This document shows positions 1-11,068 of a DNA stretch of 64,000 nucleotides, piece by piece. The notes under the pieces are model-generated. The model did no database searches. It had not been told where the DNA came from and saw nothing but the letters and a program-made list of their open reading frames with translations. Source of the DNA: Cellulophaga sp. HaHaR_3_176 (GTDB lineage: Bacteria > Bacteroidota > Bacteroidia > Flavobacteriales > Flavobacteriaceae); NCBI RefSeq assembly GCF_019021925.1, contig NZ_CP058990.1, forward strand, positions 860,001 to 924,000. Reading direction: 5' to 3'. Every line of letters starts with the position of its first letter. Position 1 is the stretch's first letter. The translations under genes were made by a program, and so were the position numbers.

Positions 1-708
1 TTGAGGTAATTCATTAGCCTTGTCACCCAAGTATTTTTTATATAAATCTAGTGCAGGCTTATCATCTAATTCATACAAAATATTATCTTTTGATTTTGTA
101 ATTGTGCGCTCAGGTCCAAAAGTTGTCCAACCGCCATAATTAGCACATGTAATTTCTAATGCTTCACCATAAAAGCCGATAGCAACAACTTCTCCTTCTT
201 TAGGTAAAGAATTATAAGAAGCGAGCGTTTTTTCAAAACGGGCATCATCTCCACATAGGCCACCTGAAATTAAAATATTTTTACTTAAGTTTTTTTCTAA
301 TCCGTCAATTAATGTACTGCCATTAACAGTACTTCCTTCTGAAACTATAAACAAGTGTTTTAATGAATTTTTCGGAAATTCACTGCTGAGGTCTTCTCCT
401 AATTTTTGAAAATTACCATCATAGTTTTTTACATTTTTAGAATGAATTATAAATGAGCTTTTTTCAAATTCAATAGCAGTTACAGAAACTGTTTCATCAT
501 ACACGTTATTACCTAAAATTTCACCAGCGGTAGATCCTAAAATAATATCTCCATCTGGAAATATTTTATTTATGTCTTTGTAAATATTGGGTTCTTCAAG
601 TAAATATCTATTTCCGAAAACAAAAACCAATGGTTTGTTTAATATTTGCTTTTCAGATATATATAACCATTTTCTATCTTTATCTCTATATAATTGAATA
701 GTTTTCAT
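1..708 (-). CDS. FIST-domain protein (NosP-like candidate), 3' part outside window
   Basis: This is a partial gene: 236 codons are visible from an ATG and the frame is still open at the left edge. The translation carries FIST_N features, namely a G-S-T-A-G-E-I motif near residue 58 and an I-S-G-G-L-C-G-D-D motif near residue 150. FIST domains are sensory domains. Some free-standing members (NosP) are haem-based nitric oxide sensors encoded next to histidine kinases. The ATG lies 4 nt after the stop of the upstream histidine kinase gene, so the two are surely co-transcribed. No membrane segment or signal peptide is seen, so it should be cytoplasmic. Two histidines are visible (in I-I-H-S and L-K-H-L), but I cannot say whether either binds haem. 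The FIST_C half is not visible. The family call is firm; haem or NO binding is inferred from context. Confidence 0.85.
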   Translation of the reverse strand, partial: MKTIQLYRDKDRKWLYISEKQILNKPLVFVFGNRYLLEEPNIYKDINKIFPDGDIILGSTAGEILGNNVYDETVSVTAIEFEKSSFIIHSKNVKNYDGNFQKLGEDLSSEFPKNSLKHLFIVSEGSTVNGSTLIDGLEKNLSKNILISGGLCGDDARFEKTLASYNSLPKEGEVVAIGFYGEALEITCANYGGWTTFGPERTITKSKDNILYELDDKPALDLYKKYLGDKANELPQ

Positions 709-712
709 AGTT

Positions 713-3067
713 TTATTTTTCTATTGTAAAGTAAAAAGTAGTTCCGATACCAATTTCACTTTCTAGCCAAACATTACCGTTATATAGGTCTATAATTTTT
801 TTAACAATTGATAATCCAATCCCAGTAGATCTTTCTTTATTACCTACAGATTCAAAAATTTTAAATATTTTTTCATGGTATTCTTTTGGTATACCAACTC
901 CATTATCTTTAACGCTAAATTGCCAGTGTGTATTTACATCTTTACAAGCAATTTCCACAAGACCTTCTTTTCGTTCTATATGAACTACTGCATTGCTTAA
1001 AAAATTCTGTATTAGTTGATGAATTTTAGTGCGATCAGCATTAATGATAGGTAATTTATTAACGACTACAACTTTAACATGTTCTGGTATATAAATAATA
1101 TCTGTTATTTCTTTAATAACTTCATTAACATCAACATTATCGTTTTCTATATTATCGCTATTTATTGTAGAATATTTTAAAATGCCATCAATCAAATTAT
1201 CCATGGCTTCAACTTTTTCTTGCATCAAAGACAAGTTATTTTTACCATTATCATCTAATACATTTATATAGTCTTCATATAACCAGGTGCATAAGGCACT
1301 AATACTTCGTAAAGGAGATTTTAAATCATGTGATACTATATGGGCGTATTCTTGTAAGCCTAAATTACTTTTTTCTAATTCTGTTACTAATTTTTCTTTT
1401 TGAATTTCAAGTCTTTTTTGATTTGTAATATCCAAATTTATACCTAAAGAACCTATAATTTTACCAGTATGGTCATATCTAGGGGCTCCACTGATCAGCC
1501 AATGTTTTTTACTGCCATCTTTATGGCAAATTTCAATTTCGTATGAGTCAGACTTCCCATCGAGTCGGCTACTCATTTTTTCTTTAATTTTTTCTTTTTC
1601 CTTACTATATATTACATCAATAGCATTATTATTTAGTAACTCATATTCTGAGTAACCACTCATTTTAGAAAAACTATTGTTTACCATCTGCACTTTAAAA
1701 TTTTCATCAATTTCAATAAGTCCCAAGTTCATGTTAGCTATAATACTTCTATATTTTTCTTTTTCAGCTTCTATATTTTTTTTATAATTTTTAGAAAGAG
1801 TTATATCTGTATAAGCCCATAAATGGCCGTTATAATTCCCATCGCTAAAAATAGGTATATAATCTCGTTCTAAAATTCGACCATCTTGCATCAATAGTTC
1901 GTCAGCTAAAACAAGTTTTTTATTTTTTAAAATTGTTTCTATTTTAAGTAGTTCAACATCAGGGTTTTTAAATAAATTTTTGGTATTATTCATTGCTTTT
2001 GAACAGTCTATACCTTTTAATCTTTCAGGAGATATTTTAATATCAAAAATGTTACAAAACATTTTATTGGTAAGCTCTATTTTTCTGTTTTCATTCTCAA
2101 CTAAAATACCTGTATGTAAATTGGCTATTAATGATGAAAGTCTATTTTCAGAAGCCTTAACTTGTTCTTTCGCTTCTATTTCTTTCGTGATATCTTCAAT
2201 TACTATTACTTGATAATCTAGCGTTCCACTTTGATTTTTTACAGCACTTACGGAAGTTTTTCCTAAAATGGATGAACCATCTTTTTTTAAGTATTTTTTT
2301 ATTGTAGAATACGTTTCTATTTCACCACTATGTAATTTTTTACATAGTATGTCGGCTAGCTCTTTGTTTTCAGCTGTAGCAATAGAATTTATAGTTTGTT
2401 TTTTTATCTCTAAGTCAGTATAGCCTAAAAGCAATAAGAATGCGCCATTTGCTTTTATAATTTTTTGATCATCTACTAATAAAATACTTAAAGGAGAATT
2501 TTCTACAATAATATCTAATTGCTTTCTTTGAGTACCTAACAATTCTTTTATTTCTGTTTCTTGGCTAATATCACGTATAATTCCTTGAGCTCCAATAGGC
2601 TTTCTATTATTATCATAAATCAAGCAACTATTTATTTCAACAAATTTTTCTTCTTTATTTTTAATTACAATTTTGGCTCTATAATTTTTTAACGTACCTA
2701 CTTCAATAAGTGTTTTAAATGACTGTATGGTGTATTCTAAATAATCTTGGTGAACTAATTCTGTTAAGTTTTGATTCTCTTTCAAATTATCAAATCCTAA
2801 AAATTCTTTAGCAGAGTTGTTCATTTTCATAACATTACCAAACAAATCTATAACAACATAAGGGTCTATTATGTTAGTGAAAACACCATCTAATTCAGAT
2901 GATTTTTCGCTAAGCATATTCTCTAATCTTGAATTTACTTCTTTTAAATGCTTGGCTGTGTCGTAAAGCTCTTTAGATTTTTTTTCTAAAATACCTTCGG
3001 CTTGTTTTCTAGCTTTTATTTGGCGATTGAGTGCTTTTTTAAGTAAAATAACTTCTTTGTTATCCAT
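713..3067 (-). CDS. Soluble four-PAS sensor histidine kinase paired with H-NOX
   Basis: The protein is 784 residues from the chosen ATG, which overlaps the end of the H-NOX gene; a TTG 15 nt further upstream is the alternative. Order of parts: an N-terminal coiled coil (about 5-60), four PAS domains (about 57-175, 180-300, 308-425, 437-555), then a kinase core. The phospho-acceptor is H580 in H-D-L-K-S-P. The ATPase has its N-box near N692, G1 box D-N-G-V-G-I-P near 721 and G2 box G-I-G-L-S-I-V near 749. There are no membrane segments and no HAMP domain, so it works in the cytosol and probably receives its signal from the H-NOX protein. It has no fused receiver. The single-domain receiver gene upstream is the natural phosphate acceptor. 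Kinases next to H-NOX genes are known NO-controlled kinases; that role here is inferred from adjacency. Confidence 0.93.
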   Translation of the reverse strand: MDNKEVILLKKALNRQIKARKQAEGILEKKSKELYDTAKHLKEVNSRLENMLSEKSSELDGVFTNIIDPYVVIDLFGNVMKMNNSAKEFLGFDNLKENQNLTELVHQDYLEYTIQSFKTLIEVGTLKNYRAKIVIKNKEEKFVEINSCLIYDNNRKPIGAQGIIRDISQETEIKELLGTQRKQLDIIVENSPLSILLVDDQKIIKANGAFLLLLGYTDLEIKKQTINSIATAENKELADILCKKLHSGEIETYSTIKKYLKKDGSSILGKTSVSAVKNQSGTLDYQVIVIEDITKEIEAKEQVKASENRLSSLIANLHTGILVENENRKIELTNKMFCNIFDIKISPERLKGIDCSKAMNNTKNLFKNPDVELLKIETILKNKKLVLADELLMQDGRILERDYIPIFSDGNYNGHLWAYTDITLSKNYKKNIEAEKEKYRSIIANMNLGLIEIDENFKVQMVNNSFSKMSGYSEYELLNNNAIDVIYSKEKEKIKEKMSSRLDGKSDSYEIEICHKDGSKKHWLISGAPRYDHTGKIIGSLGINLDITNQKRLEIQKEKLVTELEKSNLGLQEYAHIVSHDLKSPLRSISALCTWLYEDYINVLDDNGKNNLSLMQEKVEAMDNLIDGILKYSTINSDNIENDNVDVNEVIKEITDIIYIPEHVKVVVVNKLPIINADRTKIHQLIQNFLSNAVVHIERKEGLVEIACKDVNTHWQFSVKDNGVGIPKEYHEKIFKIFESVGNKERSTGIGLSIVKKIIDLYNGNVWLESEIGIGTTFYFTIEK

Positions 3068-3602
3068 TTTGGACAATATCAAATTTGACTTCTGTTCCGT
3101 CTTCTTTTAACAACTCATAGGTTATCGTAGAAGTACCATTAAAGTGTTCGAAAGTTTTTTCAATTAAACCTTCGGCTAATCGATATAATCCTCTAGATGA
3201 AGAATATATCATGCTTATAGAATTATCTGTTTTATCTAAAATTTTAAAGCTAGGTAGTTCAGCATCAGGGTATAATTTTTTGACATGAACATGTATATGA
3301 TCTTCTATAGCATATAAGAGAGCTATAGGGGTAGTGTAATTTTGTATAACTTCAGGATGAGATCCTCCTAGACCGTCAAATAAATATAAACCAAATGCAT
3401 ATATTAAATCGCCTGCTGGTATTTTTACTTTATCACTTAAACTAGTAATAAGGCTAACCATTTCATTGAAATTATAGGTCCCTACTGAAGTATATATCCC
3501 TTCAGAAGGCAAGTCTGAATTTTCAATAATAGAATCTACAATTTCGAGACCAAATTTAGATTCTACCATCTCCAAAAATTCTGTAAAAACAACTCCTTTC
3601 AT
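3060..3602 (-). CDS. H-NOX (haem NO-binding) sensor protein
   Basis: This 180-residue protein has the length and features of a stand-alone H-NOX domain, which binds ferrous haem and senses nitric oxide. The proximal haem ligand is H104 by alignment to I-H-x-H-V-x-K-L-Y-P. The haem-propionate motif YxSxR is intact at Y133, S135 and R137, and the conserved L-P-S-F follows the ligand helix. The residue five after R137 is L142. In O2-binding H-NOX proteins a distal tyrosine sits there, so this one is predicted to be NO-selective and not to bind O2. The gene overlaps the start of the histidine kinase by 8 nt, which implies translational coupling and a functional pair. There is no signal peptide, so it is cytosolic. 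The ATG is followed by a good N-terminal helix, which supports the start. Confidence 0.95.
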   Translation of the reverse strand: MKGVVFTEFLEMVESKFGLEIVDSIIENSDLPSEGIYTSVGTYNFNEMVSLITSLSDKVKIPAGDLIYAFGLYLFDGLGGSHPEVIQNYTTPIALLYAIEDHIHVHVKKLYPDAELPSFKILDKTDNSISMIYSSSRGLYRLAEGLIEKTFEHFNGTSTITYELLKEDGTEVKFDIVQNG

Positions 3603-3604
3603 AT

Positions 3605-3622
3605 ATTGATAGATTAATCAAT
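3605..3622. repeat. Small inverted repeat just upstream of the H-NOX start
   Basis: ATTGAT and ATCAAT flank a 6-nt spacer, 2 nt upstream of the H-NOX start codon in the 79-nt gap after the receiver gene. It could be an operator or an mRNA hairpin affecting H-NOX translation. Short AT-rich palindromes are common by chance in this genome, so confidence in a function is low. Confidence 0.25.
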
Positions 3623-3681
3623 AATAAATGTAGGAAAATATGTGCTATTTTTTTAAAAAATGTTGTGAAATAGCTTTTTTT

Positions 3682-4083
3682 CTAAGCTTTTACAAGTTCA
3701 TTTGTTTCCCAGTATTCAAAAACAGTTTTTAATTTATACTCGTAATCTTCATATTTTAAGGGTTTTATAACATAACCTGCTATGCCGACTTTATAACATT
3801 CAAGTAAATCAGCTCTGTTTTCAGATGTTGTGAGTATGATTGTAGGTAGATATTTAAAATTACTATCAGCTTTAAGTATTTTAAGAAATTCTATACCATT
3901 CATACGAGGCATGTTCAAATCAAGTAAAATAATATCAGGTAGTTTAGAACTAGATTTTAGAATATCTAATGCTTGTTCTCCATTTTTAGCTTCAATAATA
4001 TTATGTTTTAATTGAAGTTTAGAAACAGTTCTCTGAAGTTTCATTGTTTCAATTGTGTCGTCTTCAATAAATAATACATTCAT
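3682..4083 (-). CDS. Single-domain response regulator (CheY-like receiver)
   Basis: The 133-residue protein is one receiver domain with nothing attached. It has the acidic pocket E7-D8-D9, phospho-acceptor D55 in L-L-D-L-N-M-P, T85/T86 and the conserved K107-P. It is closest to the Rcp1-type receivers that partner phytochrome-like or PAS kinases. It lies upstream of, and on the same strand as, the H-NOX and kinase genes with a 79-nt gap, so it is probably transcribed with them or shares their regulation. With no output domain it must act by protein contact or as a phosphorelay intermediate; no target is apparent in the window. A sequence with one mismatch to the -7 consensus lies at 4104-4111 on the same strand and may be its promoter. 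Confidence 0.93.
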   Translation of the reverse strand: MNVLFIEDDTIETMKLQRTVSKLQLKHNIIEAKNGEQALDILKSSSKLPDIILLDLNMPRMNGIEFLKILKADSNFKYLPTIILTTSENRADLLECYKVGIAGYVIKPLKYEDYEYKLKTVFEYWETNELVKA

Positions 4084-4273
4084 GACTTTCTATTTTTATA
4101 CGGCAAATATTGTTTTTTATTAAATAGTAAATAAATCAAATTGGATAGAATACATTTAAGTATAGACGAATGGTATTTTAAAATAGATGAATTTTTTCAA
4201 AGGTATCTTTATATATTAATTCTTTTAGTTTTAAAAAAGTACTACTTTAAACCTTTAATTAAAATTAGATCAT

Positions 4274-6706: not shown

Positions 6707-9700
6707 ATGATTAATAAAATCATTGATTTTTCAATCAATAATAAATTTATAATAGGCTTATTTACACTAGCACTTATTGGTGTTGGTTTGTGGAGTGTAA
6801 GTCAAGTACCTATTGATGCGGTGCCAGATATTACCAATAACCAAGTACAAATAATTACGCAGTCTCCAAACTTAGGTACTGAAGATATAGAGCAGTTTGT
6901 TACATACCCTATCGAGGTTGCAATGAGCAACTTACCAAATGTATCAGAAATTCGTTCAGTTTCTCGATTCGGACTTTCAGTAGTTACAATTGTTTTTGAT
7001 GATGAAGTGGGTACTTATTTACCTCGCCAATTAGTAGCTGAAAAATTACCAGAAATACAAAAACAAATACCAGATGGGTTTGGAGAACCTTCAATGGGGC
7101 CAATTTCAACAGGTTTAGGTGAAGTTTATCAGTATACTTTAGAAGTTGATGAAGCTTTTAAAGGGGAGTATTCACTTACTGAATTAAGAACAATGCAAGA
7201 TTGGATTGTTCGCAGGCAAATGGCAATGGTGTCGGGAGTTGTAGAAGTTAATGCATTTGGAGGGAATAAAAAACAGTACGAAGTTACTGTGGATCCGAAC
7301 GAATTAAGAGCTATCGGAATTTCAATATCAGAAGTATTTACGGCACTTTCAAATAATAATGAGAATGTAGGCGGCGCTTATATAGAGCGAAACCACAAAG
7401 CAAATTTTATTAGAGGAGAAGGGCTTGCAAGAACAGTATCGGATATAGAAAATATAGTAATTAAAAATGCGGGAGGCGTTCCTATAAAAATTAAAGATGT
7501 AGGAGAGGTGAAAATAGGTAGTTCAGTTCGCTACGGTGCTTTAACTAAAGATGGTAAAGGAGAAGCTGTCGGGGGTATGATTTTAATGCTGAAAGGAGCA
7601 AATTCAAATAAAGTAATTGAAGCTGTAAAAGAAAGAATAGCAGAAATTCAAAAATCGCTACCTGAAGGAGTGCAGATAAAACCTTTTTTAGATAGAAGCG
7701 AGTTAATTGAAAAAACAACAGGAACAATTACTTTAAACTTATTAGAGGGGGGATTGATTGTAGTTTTTGTTTTAATGCTTCTTTTGGGCAACTGGCGTGG
7801 AGGTTTAATTGTAGCATCTACAATACCATTGTCTTTATTATTTGCATTTATATTGATGAACATATTTGGTGTCTGGGCAAATTTAATGAGCTTAGGTGCT
7901 ATTGATTTCGGAATTATTGTTGATGGCGCTGTAATTATAGTAGAAAGTACGGTTTTTTTAATGTACAGTTATGCTAAAAAGAATGAGGGGCAAAACACAT
8001 CTATGGATGCAATATCAGGTCTTGCTTCTAAAAAAATGATGAATGCAGCTTTTTTTGGTCAGTTAATTATTCTAATAGTTTTTCTTCCCATTTTAGCTTT
8101 AGAAGGTGTCGAAGGTAAAATGTTCCAACCAATGGCGCTTACATTTATTTTTGCAATGATTGGGGCAATGATTTTGTGTTTAACTTACGTACCAATGATT
8201 TCGGCTTTGTTTTTAAAAGCACCTAAACCAAATGAAGTACATAAGCATAGTTATGGTGATAAGTTTGTATTTTGGGTAGAAGAGAAGTACAAACCACTTT
8301 TAATAAAGTCTCTTACTAAAGGTAAAACAATTATAGTTTCTGCAGTTGTCCTTTTTTTAATAGCCTTATTTGCTTTTACAAAAATGGGAGGTGAATTTAT
8401 TCCTCAACTAGATGAGGGAACTATTGCTTTTCATGATATTTTAAAACCAGGTAGCTCACTTACAGAAAGTATTAATATAACTACTAAAATTGAGCGAATT
8501 GTAAAATCTAAATTTCCTGAGGTTGAGAGTATAATCAGTCGTATAGGTGTAGCAGATGTACCTACAGATCCTATGCCTATGGATATTGCAGATGTATTTG
8601 TAATATTAAAACCTGAAAAAGAATGGGTTTCTGCAAGTTCTAAATCTGAATTAGTTGAAAAAATAAAAGAAGCAATTAGTGTTGTTCCTGGTGTTGGATT
8701 TGAGTTTACACAGCCTATCGAAATGCGATTTAATGAGTTACTTACGGGAGTTCGTGAAGATGTAGCTATAAAGTTATTCGGAGAAGATTTAGATGTTTTG
8801 GCACGTAAATCGGAAGAAATGGGGCAAATAATAGCTACAGTACCTGGTGTGGCCGATATAAAAGTTGAAGCAACAGCTGGTTTGCCTCAAATTACAATTC
8901 ATTATAACAGAAATAAGCTTGCACAGTATGGCTTACATATAAATACTTTAAATAATACTGTACAAGCTGCATTTGCAGGTGGGCACTCGGGAGTAATTTT
9001 TGAGGGAGAAAAACGCTTTGATTTGGTTGTTCGATTAAAAGAAGAAAACAGAAAGAGTATAAGTGATATTCAAAACCTGTTTATTAATCTGCCAAGTGGT
9101 TTTCAAATTCCATTACGAGAAGTAGCAGATATTAGTTACGAACCTGGACCAATGCAAATTAGTAGAGATAATACCAACCGTAGATCGTATGTAGGTATTA
9201 ATATTAGAGATAGAGATGTAAAATCTGTTGTAGAGGAGATAAAGCAAAAACTAGATGCTCAATTCGAATTGCCTTCAGGCTATTTTATTCGCTATGGTGG
9301 TGCTTTTGAGAATTTAGAACGTGCTACTAATCGTTTAAAAATGGTTGTACCTATTGCATTACTTTTAATTTTCACCCTAATATATTTTGCATTAAAATCA
9401 TTCAAGCAAACGATAATGATTTATTTAGCAATACCAATGGCAACTATAGGTGGTGTGTTTGCTCTTTGGTTGCGTGATATGCCTTTTAGTATTTCAGCAG
9501 GTATTGGTTTTATTGTGCTTTTTGGAGTAGCAGTACTTAACGGTTTGGTGATGATTAGTGGTTTAAATGAGTTGAAGGAAGAAGGTGTAATCAATTTAAG
9601 AGACAGAATTGTAGAAGGAACCAAAAGAAGAATTAGGCCTATTTTATTAACGGCATTTACAGATGTGTTAGGATTTTTACCCATGGCAATATCATCATCG

Positions 9701-11068
9701 GCAGGGGCAGAGGTACAAAGGCCTTTAGCGACAGTTGTTATAGGTGGTTTGATTACATCAACATTATTAACATTGTTTATTTTACCTATTTTTTATCAAT
9801 GGATAGAAAATAAATCAATAACAACAAACTTTGCAGGAAATAAGAGTAAAGTAGTTTTTTTGTTAATAGCACTATTGGTTATAATACCTTTTGCGAATGC
9901 GCAAGAAATTCCTAAAGATTCTATTTTGCCAATTTCTTTAGTAGATGCAATAAAGATTTCAAAAGAGAATTATCCGATATTAAAATCTCAAAAATTAGAA
10001 GTCGAAAAGCAAAATGCATTAAAAGGATCAGCATATGATTTTGGAAAAACTCAAATTTTCACAGGAGGAGAAGAAATAAACGAATCTCAAGGAGTTTATA
10101 CAACAATTGGTTTTGGACAGCAAAGCATAAATATTTTTGGAGTATCTGCAAAAAATAAATTACAAAAACAGCGTGTAAAATTAGCAGAAACAGCTTATTT
10201 ACTTTCAGAACTAGAAGTTGAACAAGAAGTTAAAAAAGCGTGGTCAGATGTTTTTAAAGCAAAACAAAAATTACTCCTTTTTGAAGAAATGGATTCAATT
10301 TACGGTAAGTTTTCAAGAGCAATAGCTTTAAATTTAGAAGTAGAATCTATTTCTAAACTAGAATATGCGTCTGCAAAAAATCAAGCATTACAAATTCTGA
10401 ATAAAAAACAACAAGCACAAAGCGATTATGATATTACACTGCAACGTTTTAATTTATGGTTGGTTTCAGATGCTTTTTATACGGTAGCTAGTAATTTAGA
10501 TGAAAGTATATTTTTTATAAATATGACAGATGTAGAACTAGAAAAGCATCCAAGTTTTATTCTAACCAATAGCCAATTAAATGAGGCTCAGGCAAATTAT
10601 AAAATGGCTAAATCAGATATGTTGCCAAAACTAAATTTGCAAGGAGGGTTACAAAGGTTAAATGGACAAAATGGTTTTTATAGCTATCAGGCAGGTTTAT
10701 CTATTCCTTTGTTTTCGGGATTAGAGCGTAGTAAAGTCAAAGCATTAAAAATAGAAAAGCAAATTATAGAAACAGATGTTTTATTCAAGCAAGATCAGAT
10801 AAAAGCAGCATATAAACAAATATTTATGGAGTATAAGAAATGGCAAACTTCATGGGTTTTTTATACAAACAATGTGCTACCGTTGGCAAAAGAACAGCGT
10901 AAAGGTGCTTTGTTTGCTTATACTGAAGGAGCACTTGACTATACAGCATTTAGCCAAATAATGCGAGATGCTATCCAAATTGAAATAGATGCATTAACGG
11001 CATTAGATAATTATTTACAGGCTTTATTTGAGTTGCAATATTTTAAAAATGAAAAAAATGAAAAATAA
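6707..11068 (+). CDS. czcA: CzcA/CusA-type heavy-metal RND pump fused to a TolC/CzcC-like outer-membrane channel
   Basis: The 1453-residue protein has two parts. Residues 1 to about 1040 form a complete HME-RND pump: N-terminal helix, two periplasmic loops, and the TM4 motif D400-F-G-x-x-V-D406-G with E413, which marks proton-coupled metal exporters. Residues 1046-1065 form a second hydrophobic stretch ending A-N-A, followed by Q1066, which is a textbook signal peptidase I site. Residues 1066-1453 resemble a TolC/CzcC outer-membrane factor with long helices and a repeated half. Normal CzcA is about 1040 residues, with CzcC separate. Such fusions occur in Bacteroidota. The fusion is probably cleaved after A1065 to give pump and channel (inference). 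The adaptor gene overlaps its end by 20 nt. Expected substrates are Zn2+, Cd2+, Co2+ or Cu+; which one cannot be read here. Confidence 0.93.
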   Translation: MINKIIDFSINNKFIIGLFTLALIGVGLWSVSQVPIDAVPDITNNQVQIITQSPNLGTEDIEQFVTYPIEVAMSNLPNVSEIRSVSRFGLSVVTIVFDDEVGTYLPRQLVAEKLPEIQKQIPDGFGEPSMGPISTGLGEVYQYTLEVDEAFKGEYSLTELRTMQDWIVRRQMAMVSGVVEVNAFGGNKKQYEVTVDPNELRAIGISISEVFTALSNNNENVGGAYIERNHKANFIRGEGLARTVSDIENIVIKNAGGVPIKIKDVGEVKIGSSVRYGALTKDGKGEAVGGMILMLKGANSNKVIEAVKERIAEIQKSLPEGVQIKPFLDRSELIEKTTGTITLNLLEGGLIVVFVLMLLLGNWRGGLIVASTIPLSLLFAFILMNIFGVWANLMSLGAIDFGIIVDGAVIIVESTVFLMYSYAKKNEGQNTSMDAISGLASKKMMNAAFFGQLIILIVFLPILALEGVEGKMFQPMALTFIFAMIGAMILCLTYVPMISALFLKAPKPNEVHKHSYGDKFVFWVEEKYKPLLIKSLTKGKTIIVSAVVLFLIALFAFTKMGGEFIPQLDEGTIAFHDILKPGSSLTESINITTKIERIVKSKFPEVESIISRIGVADVPTDPMPMDIADVFVILKPEKEWVSASSKSELVEKIKEAISVVPGVGFEFTQPIEMRFNELLTGVREDVAIKLFGEDLDVLARKSEEMGQIIATVPGVADIKVEATAGLPQITIHYNRNKLAQYGLHINTLNNTVQAAFAGGHSGVIFEGEKRFDLVVRLKEENRKSISDIQNLFINLPSGFQIPLREVADISYEPGPMQISRDNTNRRSYVGINIRDRDVKSVVEEIKQKLDAQFELPSGYFIRYGGAFENLERATNRLKMVVPIALLLIFTLIYFALKSFKQTIMIYLAIPMATIGGVFALWLRDMPFSISAGIGFIVLFGVAVLNGLVMISGLNELKEEGVINLRDRIVEGTKRRIRPILLTAFTDVLGFLPMAISSSAGAEVQRPLATVVIGGLITSTLLTLFILPIFYQWIENKSITTNFAGNKSKVVFLLIALLVIIPFANAQEIPKDSILPISLVDAIKISKENYPILKSQKLEVEKQNALKGSAYDFGKTQIFTGGEEINESQGVYTTIGFGQQSINIFGVSAKNKLQKQRVKLAETAYLLSELEVEQEVKKAWSDVFKAKQKLLLFEEMDSIYGKFSRAIALNLEVESISKLEYASAKNQALQILNKKQQAQSDYDITLQRFNLWLVSDAFYTVASNLDESIFFINMTDVELEKHPSFILTNSQLNEAQANYKMAKSDMLPKLNLQGGLQRLNGQNGFYSYQAGLSIPLFSGLERSKVKALKIEKQIIETDVLFKQDQIKAAYKQIFMEYKKWQTSWVFYTNNVLPLAKEQRKGALFAYTEGALDYTAFSQIMRDAIQIEIDALTALDNYLQALFELQYFKNEKNEK

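Follow-up and report, generated by a model that had tools for sequence, protein, structure and literature searches.

The window, the whole stretch of 64,000 nucleotides analysed here, spans C1:860001-924000 of the one-contig genome of Cellulophaga sp. HaHaR_3_176 (3,803,948 bases) and has at its left edge an operon of seven adjoining genes on one strand. In order these encode a stand-alone receiver (REC), an H-NOX protein, a first histidine kinase (HK1), a FIST protein, a second histidine kinase (HK2), a histidine phosphotransfer (HPt)-like protein and a REC-LytTR regulator. REC (133 residues, window 3682-4083), H-NOX (180 residues, 3060-3602), the soluble PAS-rich kinase HK1 of the H-NOX arm (713-3067, from an ATG) and the first 236 codons of FIST (1-708) lie on the minus strand within the window. 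A sequence-only reading of the window had given these four genes as consecutive, with an 8-nt overlap between H-NOX and kinase and a 4-nt gap between kinase and FIST. Re-derived coordinates bear this out, the overlap holding with the kinase ATG at 3067. An alternative TTG start at 3082 yields an HK1 of 789 residues and extends the overlap to 23 nt. The same reading saw a single soluble kinase, which is an edge effect because the window ended inside FIST, with HK2 beyond its left edge. Recovered in full, the FIST gene has 377 codons (minus strand, 7575-8708 of the fetched locus L003), and further left lie HK2 (355 residues, L003 6508-7575), the HPt-like gene (106 residues, L003 6191-6511) and REC-LytTR (237 residues, L003 5473-6186). 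HK2 directly follows FIST and overlaps it by 1 nt, so that FIST is encoded with a histidine kinase as NosP-type proteins are. Intergenic spacings from REC to LytTR, with the TTG start, are 79, -23, 4, -1, -4 and 4 nt. Pfam recognises H-NOX (HNOB 127.2 bits, curated cut-off 25.5), both FIST domains (FIST 136.5 and FIST_C 119.5 bits), both kinases (HisKA, HATPase_c and PAS models in HK1; HATPase_c well over and HisKA below cut-off in HK2), both receivers (Response_reg 77.2 bits in REC) and LytTR (PF04397, 67.9 bits), and the family calls made from the window alone stand. One HNOB match and one FIST match were found in the whole genome.

The pairing of H-NOX with FIST extends well beyond Cellulophaga. 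Across 249 same-family genomes from 235 genera, H-NOX was found in 93 and FIST in 77. FIST lies 1.3-2.7 kb downstream of H-NOX in 50 genomes, on the same strand in all 50, while the remaining H-NOX genomes carry FIST elsewhere (10) or lack it (33). As FIST is thus within 2.8 kb and on the same strand in 50 of 93 H-NOX genomes, the grouping of H-NOX, kinase and FIST noted in the window recurs across the family, and the proximity is far beyond chance. The H-NOX-to-FIST distance clusters near 1.35, 1.73, 2.1 and 2.5 kb with HK1 length rising in step, which we read as one to four PAS domains in HK1. A phylum-wide draw of 395 genomes, with FIST typed only at the 11 places on the same contig as an H-NOX match, gave H-NOX in 27, FIST in 89 and adjacency in 11, one of them outside the family with the full order. 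A named collection of the 80 best relatives of this FIST, which being chosen by FIST gives no measure of H-NOX without FIST, includes Cellulophaga, Maribacter, Euzebyella, Flagellimonas, Arenibacter, Aquimarina and Flavobacterium. Among these 80 loci HK2 directly follows FIST in all, H-NOX is in the same chain in 75 and the full seven-gene order is present in 68; one of the five loci without H-NOX in the chain is from Saccharicrinis and has HK1-FIST-HK2 only. A link with denitrification was considered and rejected: NirK, over cut-off in 47 of the 249 family genomes and absent from the source genome, was found in 15 of 93 genomes with H-NOX versus 32 of 156 without, showing no association.

Gene order was compared at 94 H-NOX loci, mostly 14.5 kb and some cut by contig ends, with genes ordered by similarity to the source operon; counts of 95 add the source locus. 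H-NOX matches in G112 (partial) and G076:C2 (stops) were left out beforehand. The order H-NOX-HK1-FIST-HK2-HPt-LytTR occurs at 43 of 95 loci and H-NOX-HK1-HPt-LytTR, lacking FIST and HK2, at 36. Because FIST and HK2 are both absent from these 36 otherwise like operons, they form a cassette between HK1 and HPt that comes and goes together. The other 16 loci comprise seven with HK1 only (some at contig ends), four without an adjacent LytTR, two scored as ending after HK2 (one of which, L092, does carry HPt and LytTR on inspection), one cut at FIST, one with HK2 but no FIST (L125) and one with HK1 followed by LytTR (L140). Two genomes (L200 and L201) have an H-NOX operon without the cassette and carry FIST-HK2 at another place. 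A quick tree built from four operon proteins (76 loci, four with long or odd branches having been left out) shows 15 changes of cassette state, at least seven of which are forced by starred branches; a tree of LytTR alone gives 21 changes, two of them forced. Among operon variants, L138 has the HPt-LytTR pair in duplicate, L127 has one more PAS kinase, placed after REC and before H-NOX, and L119 and L132 each have a second LytTR gene. Six loci of the genus g128 (L208-L211, L221 and L225) retain FIST and HK2, with LytTR and HPt in five. Their H-NOX is of a different lineage, scoring 24-38 bits to the source H-NOX in five and undetected in L225, and HK1 carries an HNOBA domain in the three loci tested. 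As FIST and HK2 are kept while the H-NOX lineage and HK1 differ, the sequences indicate that g128 has exchanged the first arm and retained that of FIST. A third kinase lies between HK2 and HPt in L208 and L210.

Comparison with FIST genes outside the cassette indicates mixed ancestry for HK2. FIST unlinked to H-NOX was found at 54 places, 26 of them in 19 fetched stretches, and at 15 of these 19 loci FIST lies beside a kinase of about 575-615 residues with a receiver. The HK2 N-terminus is homologous to that of these stand-alone FIST kinases (hhalign probability 98.5%, E 1.7e-15), with no detectable homology to the HK1 N-terminus (hhalign 20.7%). A hidden Markov model of this 66-residue N-terminal element recovers 48 of 50 HK2 proteins at E<1e-3, including that of the source genome (E 4.4e-12), and 3 of 95 HK1; of the two HK2 outside the threshold, that of L085 has an N-terminus of another kind and that of L125 reaches E 0.01. 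No match was found in any frame from 28 other kinase loci of the source genome. In a tree of 82 of 195 kinase cores, by comparison, a 100/100 clade unites 20 of 21 HK1, all 18 HK2, three kinases of L200 and L201 and one source-genome GAF kinase, while 14 stand-alone FIST kinases form a separate 100/99 clade. Descent of the HK2 core from the FIST kinases was rejected, the constraint costing 243.8 log units (p-AU 1.7e-45 in an approximately unbiased test designed after a first tree had been seen). Because the N-terminus matches FIST kinases while the core groups with HK1, HK2 looks like a chimera of a FIST-kinase-like N-terminus and a catalytic core of the H-NOX-kinase clade. HK1 itself is a possible parent of that core, though HK1 is not one clade and the HK2 sub-clade also holds the GAF kinase. 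Both HK2 (73.0 bits) and HK1 (77.6 bits) fall short of the cut-off of 400 for the NahK/ErcS-type NCBIfam model NF041832.

We consider it probable from these sequences that the operon encodes a modular multi-input phosphorelay, with a pair of sensor-kinase arms feeding a single REC>HPt>LytTR relay. In the first arm ligand-bound H-NOX, with nitric oxide (NO) as predicted ligand, would change HK1 activity, and in the second FIST would control HK2, probably via the HK2 N-terminal element. Both kinases would most likely phosphorylate the same stand-alone REC, given that the HK2 core belongs to the H-NOX-kinase clade, and phosphate would then pass from REC through HPt to REC-LytTR. Once phosphorylated, the regulator is predicted to bind tandem repeats of 21-bp period before the operon, providing feedback, and also repeats before neighbouring polysaccharide and secreted surface-protein genes. 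On balance we also favour the view that HK2 is a naturally rewired kinase through which a second sensor, arriving as an all-or-none cassette, plugs into an existing NO phosphorelay, and that this relay drives genes for polysaccharide and type-IX-secreted surface proteins under LytTR control.

For the first arm the sensor features are well preserved. H104, which we take to be the proximal haem histidine, is kept at 94 of 95 loci, and Y133, S135 and R137, presumably the YxSxR motif, at 95, 95 and 89 respectively; the glycine hinge is kept in the source protein. The nearest solved relatives are 6bde and 6bdd, structures of Kordia algicida H-NOX. L142 stands, numbering by offset, at the place of Tyr140, the hydrogen-bond donor in an O2-binding H-NOX (PMC7356049). 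H-NOX is predicted to be a haem NO sensor.

The second sensor is less readily assigned. FIST was considered as a NosP protein and rejected at 62.7 bits against an equivalog cut-off of 450 (NCBIfam NF041558); stand-alone flavobacterial FISTs score 84-98 bits or nothing with this model, and two plasmid FISTs taken as comparators also fail it (50.4 and 75.2 bits). H366 is the only invariant histidine in 15 diverse FISTs and is common to FISTs of quite different systems, and C152 is present in 47 of 50 operon FISTs where 9 of 9 aligned non-cassette FISTs have alanine. The predicted fold (pLDDT 88.1) matches the FIST of human FBXO22, chorismatase and cyanuric acid hydrolases, and the same fold relations have been given for FBXO22 (PMC11185555). 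A sequence search of solved structures returned one weak unrelated match with FIST alone and two with a profile; no haem protein was among the 50 fold matches listed, which excludes nothing. Candidate ligands of FIST are haem, NO sensed by way of haem, and a redox/electrophile signal. That FIST senses a cue other than NO (haem, electrophile/redox or a metabolite) within the same two-arm relay, making an AND/OR gate with NO, is a serious prospect whose chances we put slightly below even. Against it, haem binding and NO-dependent control of kinases are on record for purified NosP proteins (PMC12570481, PMC11237717), and the H-NOX neighbour fits an NO theme. Elsewhere, two genomes without H-NOX carry tandem FIST genes (four at L206 4462-10484 and at least three at L207 4436-10430) together with a 100-residue gene, a short kinase of 346-367 residues and a 1480-residue frame, which constitutes another FIST system.

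The sequence-only reading had proposed a double-input circuit acting through one kinase. Two inputs are well supported, but they most likely meet at the phosphorelay, not at one kinase, because the kinase cores form one clade, their interface residues are similar, and there is one HPt and one LytTR. In EnvZ, residues 250, 254 and 255 lie +7, +11 and +12 from the phosphorylated histidine. The three substitutions T250V, L254Y and A255R switch EnvZ specificity to that of RstB (PMC2991266). The +7/+8/+11/+12 quartet is RSAL in 79 of 94 HK1 (RSAL in the source genome) and RSAL, RSTL, RNAL or RNTL in 35 of 49 HK2 (RNAL in the source genome), whereas 16 stand-alone FIST kinases have NAGx (14) or HGGL (2), and RSAL or RNAL occurs in none of 29 other source-genome kinase rows, some of which are repeated. 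An HK1-like quartet in HK2 is expected if the partner was kept, and also from common core descent, and is support, not proof. Phospho-sites are intact throughout: the kinase histidine in 94/94 HK1 and 49/49 HK2, REC D55 in 91/91, HPt H56 in 84/84 and LytTR D53 in 81/81. An orphan GAF kinase of the source genome, at about C1:1417866-1419164 (L205 6866-8164), is 55.6% identical over 426 residues to the third kinase of L208; its core is the GAF kinase core in the HK1/HK2 clade, and despite an INTL quartet it may be a third relay input. Several points weigh against a chimeric HK2 feeding a shared relay. A coil common to the N-termini of HK1 and the stand-alone FIST kinases (hhalign 96.6%) makes the splice less clean; HK2 positions +8 and +11 vary more than in HK1; like interfaces also follow from common descent of the cores; and the HPt-like protein of the source genome has no Pfam match at 0.01, its homologue in HPt position in L209 scoring 28.8 bits with Hpt (cut-off 24.6).

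Two pathways merely co-transcribed, HK1 signalling to REC and HK2 to LytTR, would account for two receivers and two kinases, with REC beside H-NOX and LytTR on the HK2 side. This is unlikely: at the 36 cassette-free loci HK1, HPt and LytTR occur without HK2, meaning that LytTR does not need HK2, and the alikeness of the HK1 and HK2 interfaces, with a quartet otherwise missing from the source-genome rows, also counts against it. Gating of a single shared kinase, HK1, by both H-NOX and FIST, suggested by the adjacency of H-NOX, HK1 and FIST and by G050 (L200), where an HK1-like gene, FIST and HK2 lie together away from H-NOX, is very improbable given that FIST has its own kinase immediately after it at every named locus, that this kinase has the N-terminus typical of FIST kinases and that the 36 operons have HK1 without FIST.

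A conserved repeat is found upstream of REC. Counting k-mers in the 300 bp that precede REC at 91 loci showed CATTCGTC in 50, versus 0.1 expected. The derived matrix, ACCATTCGTC[TG]ACACTTAA, scores above 7 bits in 83 of the 91, which are the training set itself, and in 30 of 910 random 300-bp segments of the same loci. Where two copies are present (60 loci) the period is 21 bp in 56, 22 in three and 78 in one. LytTR sites are two 9-11-nt repeats with 11-13 nt between them (PMC4847170), and the 21-bp period fits such repeats. The source operon has a strong predicted copy at window 4155-4174 on the minus strand, 71 bp before the REC start (25.4 bits, a site within the training set), and a weaker one 21 bp away at 4176-4195 on the same strand, below 9 bits alone; the tandem pattern lies at C1:864161-864192 with one mismatch. 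Motif and LytTR occur together at 79 loci and are both absent at six.

Relatives also suggest targets. Beyond the operon itself, a site above 15 bits lies ahead of 28 of 32 scored genes of a family of secreted proteins of about 860 residues, an example being a DUF6923 protein that carries a type-IX sorting tail. The same holds for 9 of 21 GT4-type glycosyltransferases, 4 of 11 chain-length-like genes, and 3 of 16 and 6 of 6 in two STAS-like sets. A tandem-pattern scan of 12 chosen H-NOX genomes, with the reversed pattern as control, gave 28 matches versus one, 22 of them within 25 kb of H-NOX; three are flanked on one side by a gene that starts with a receiver and on the other by a divergently oriented gene for a membrane protein, and genes with like beginnings adjoin the source operon, one of them a receiver-glycosyltransferase. 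G227, whose H-NOX operon lacks LytTR, has no tandem site near H-NOX. Separately, G227, without LytTR and motif at L107, has a strong tandem site at C1:4214877-4214908 (L331) before another stand-alone REC. The predicted output of the relay is probably the cell surface. Counting the other way, the motif occurs without LytTR on the fetched stretch at four loci and LytTR without the motif at two (in one of these, L152, sites lie just outside the scored stretch); among flippase-like genes just 4 of 27 have a site above 15 bits ahead of them, among TPR/barrel genes 0 of 46, and across the loci as many as 179 of all 1397 genes have one; and the source-genome glycosyltransferase site is weak (10.6 bits). 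With that site weak and no gene of the secreted-protein family seen within the 32 kb read around the source operon, the surface output is drawn mostly from relatives. Genome-wide, the source has nine tandem matches at up to three mismatches versus one control, the operon's being the best, and most of the others look like chance. At C1:2151293-2151324 (L237) an operator-like tandem of 15.7 bits stands about 90 bp ahead of a PAS kinase gene, itself followed by a gene for a receiver, and may mark another target.

The closest known arrangement is the Vibrio quorum-sensing relay, in which several kinases feed LuxU/LuxO and NO enters through H-NOX-HqsK or NosP-VpsS (PMC7595309, PMC8738867). As described there, several sensor kinases, one under an NO sensor, act on one HPt and one regulator, as proposed here, and NO affects biofilm. 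The Vibrio inputs are described as lying at separate loci, H-NOX and NosP each with its own kinase, and the output as LuxO/Qrr, whereas here one operon encodes both sensors, both kinases, REC, HPt and the LytTR regulator. In Burkholderia pseudomallei NosP-NosK-NosR, a FIST protein is likewise encoded with a soluble kinase, one without a recognised sensor domain (PMC12570481); NosR is described as an HD-GYP type response regulator, and the operon as described contains no H-NOX. The Streptococcus mutans HdrRM and BrsRM systems share a LytTR regulator and direct repeats, 12 bp apart, before their own operon (PMC6193735), but that regulator is presented as under membrane-protein control, not kinases and a relay. 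Bare co-occurrence of FIST and hnox is already published, FIST genes lying within five genes of hnox in group 1 of a genome-neighbourhood network (PMC8738867); the network description gives it as a frequency only and does not go into gene order or mention a second kinase, HPt, LytTR or operator. The second kinase, cassette, chimera and operator had no account that we found in open-licence literature, outside which subscription papers mostly lie, so this is weak evidence of novelty. Shewanella oneidensis NosP signalling reportedly modulates an NO/H-NOX multicomponent cyclic di-GMP (c-di-GMP) network, going by the title of Nisbett 2019; the output named in that title is c-di-GMP, and the present operon encodes no c-di-GMP enzyme.

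The H-NOX and NosP pathways described in the papers cited here belong to Proteobacteria, and c-di-GMP or quorum sensing is the output of most of them. If the proposed circuit is true, Bacteroidota would have a switch from NO to the cell surface whose operon encodes no c-di-GMP enzyme. The putative circuit is widespread among flavobacteria and comes with a predicted operator and predicted targets, which would make NO responses of the group testable. In HK2, nature would then have run an experiment on how two-component specificity is rewired, one for which related genera offer the relay both with and without the cassette, and the operon would be a clean setting for asking what FIST proteins sense.

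Beyond the operon, a frame of 1453 residues lies at window 6707-11068 (plus strand). Its start resembles a CusA-type RND pump, and past a signal-peptide-like stretch it seems to run on into a part like an outer-membrane factor. At L205 559-6833 there is a separate pump of 1247 residues with its likely partners.

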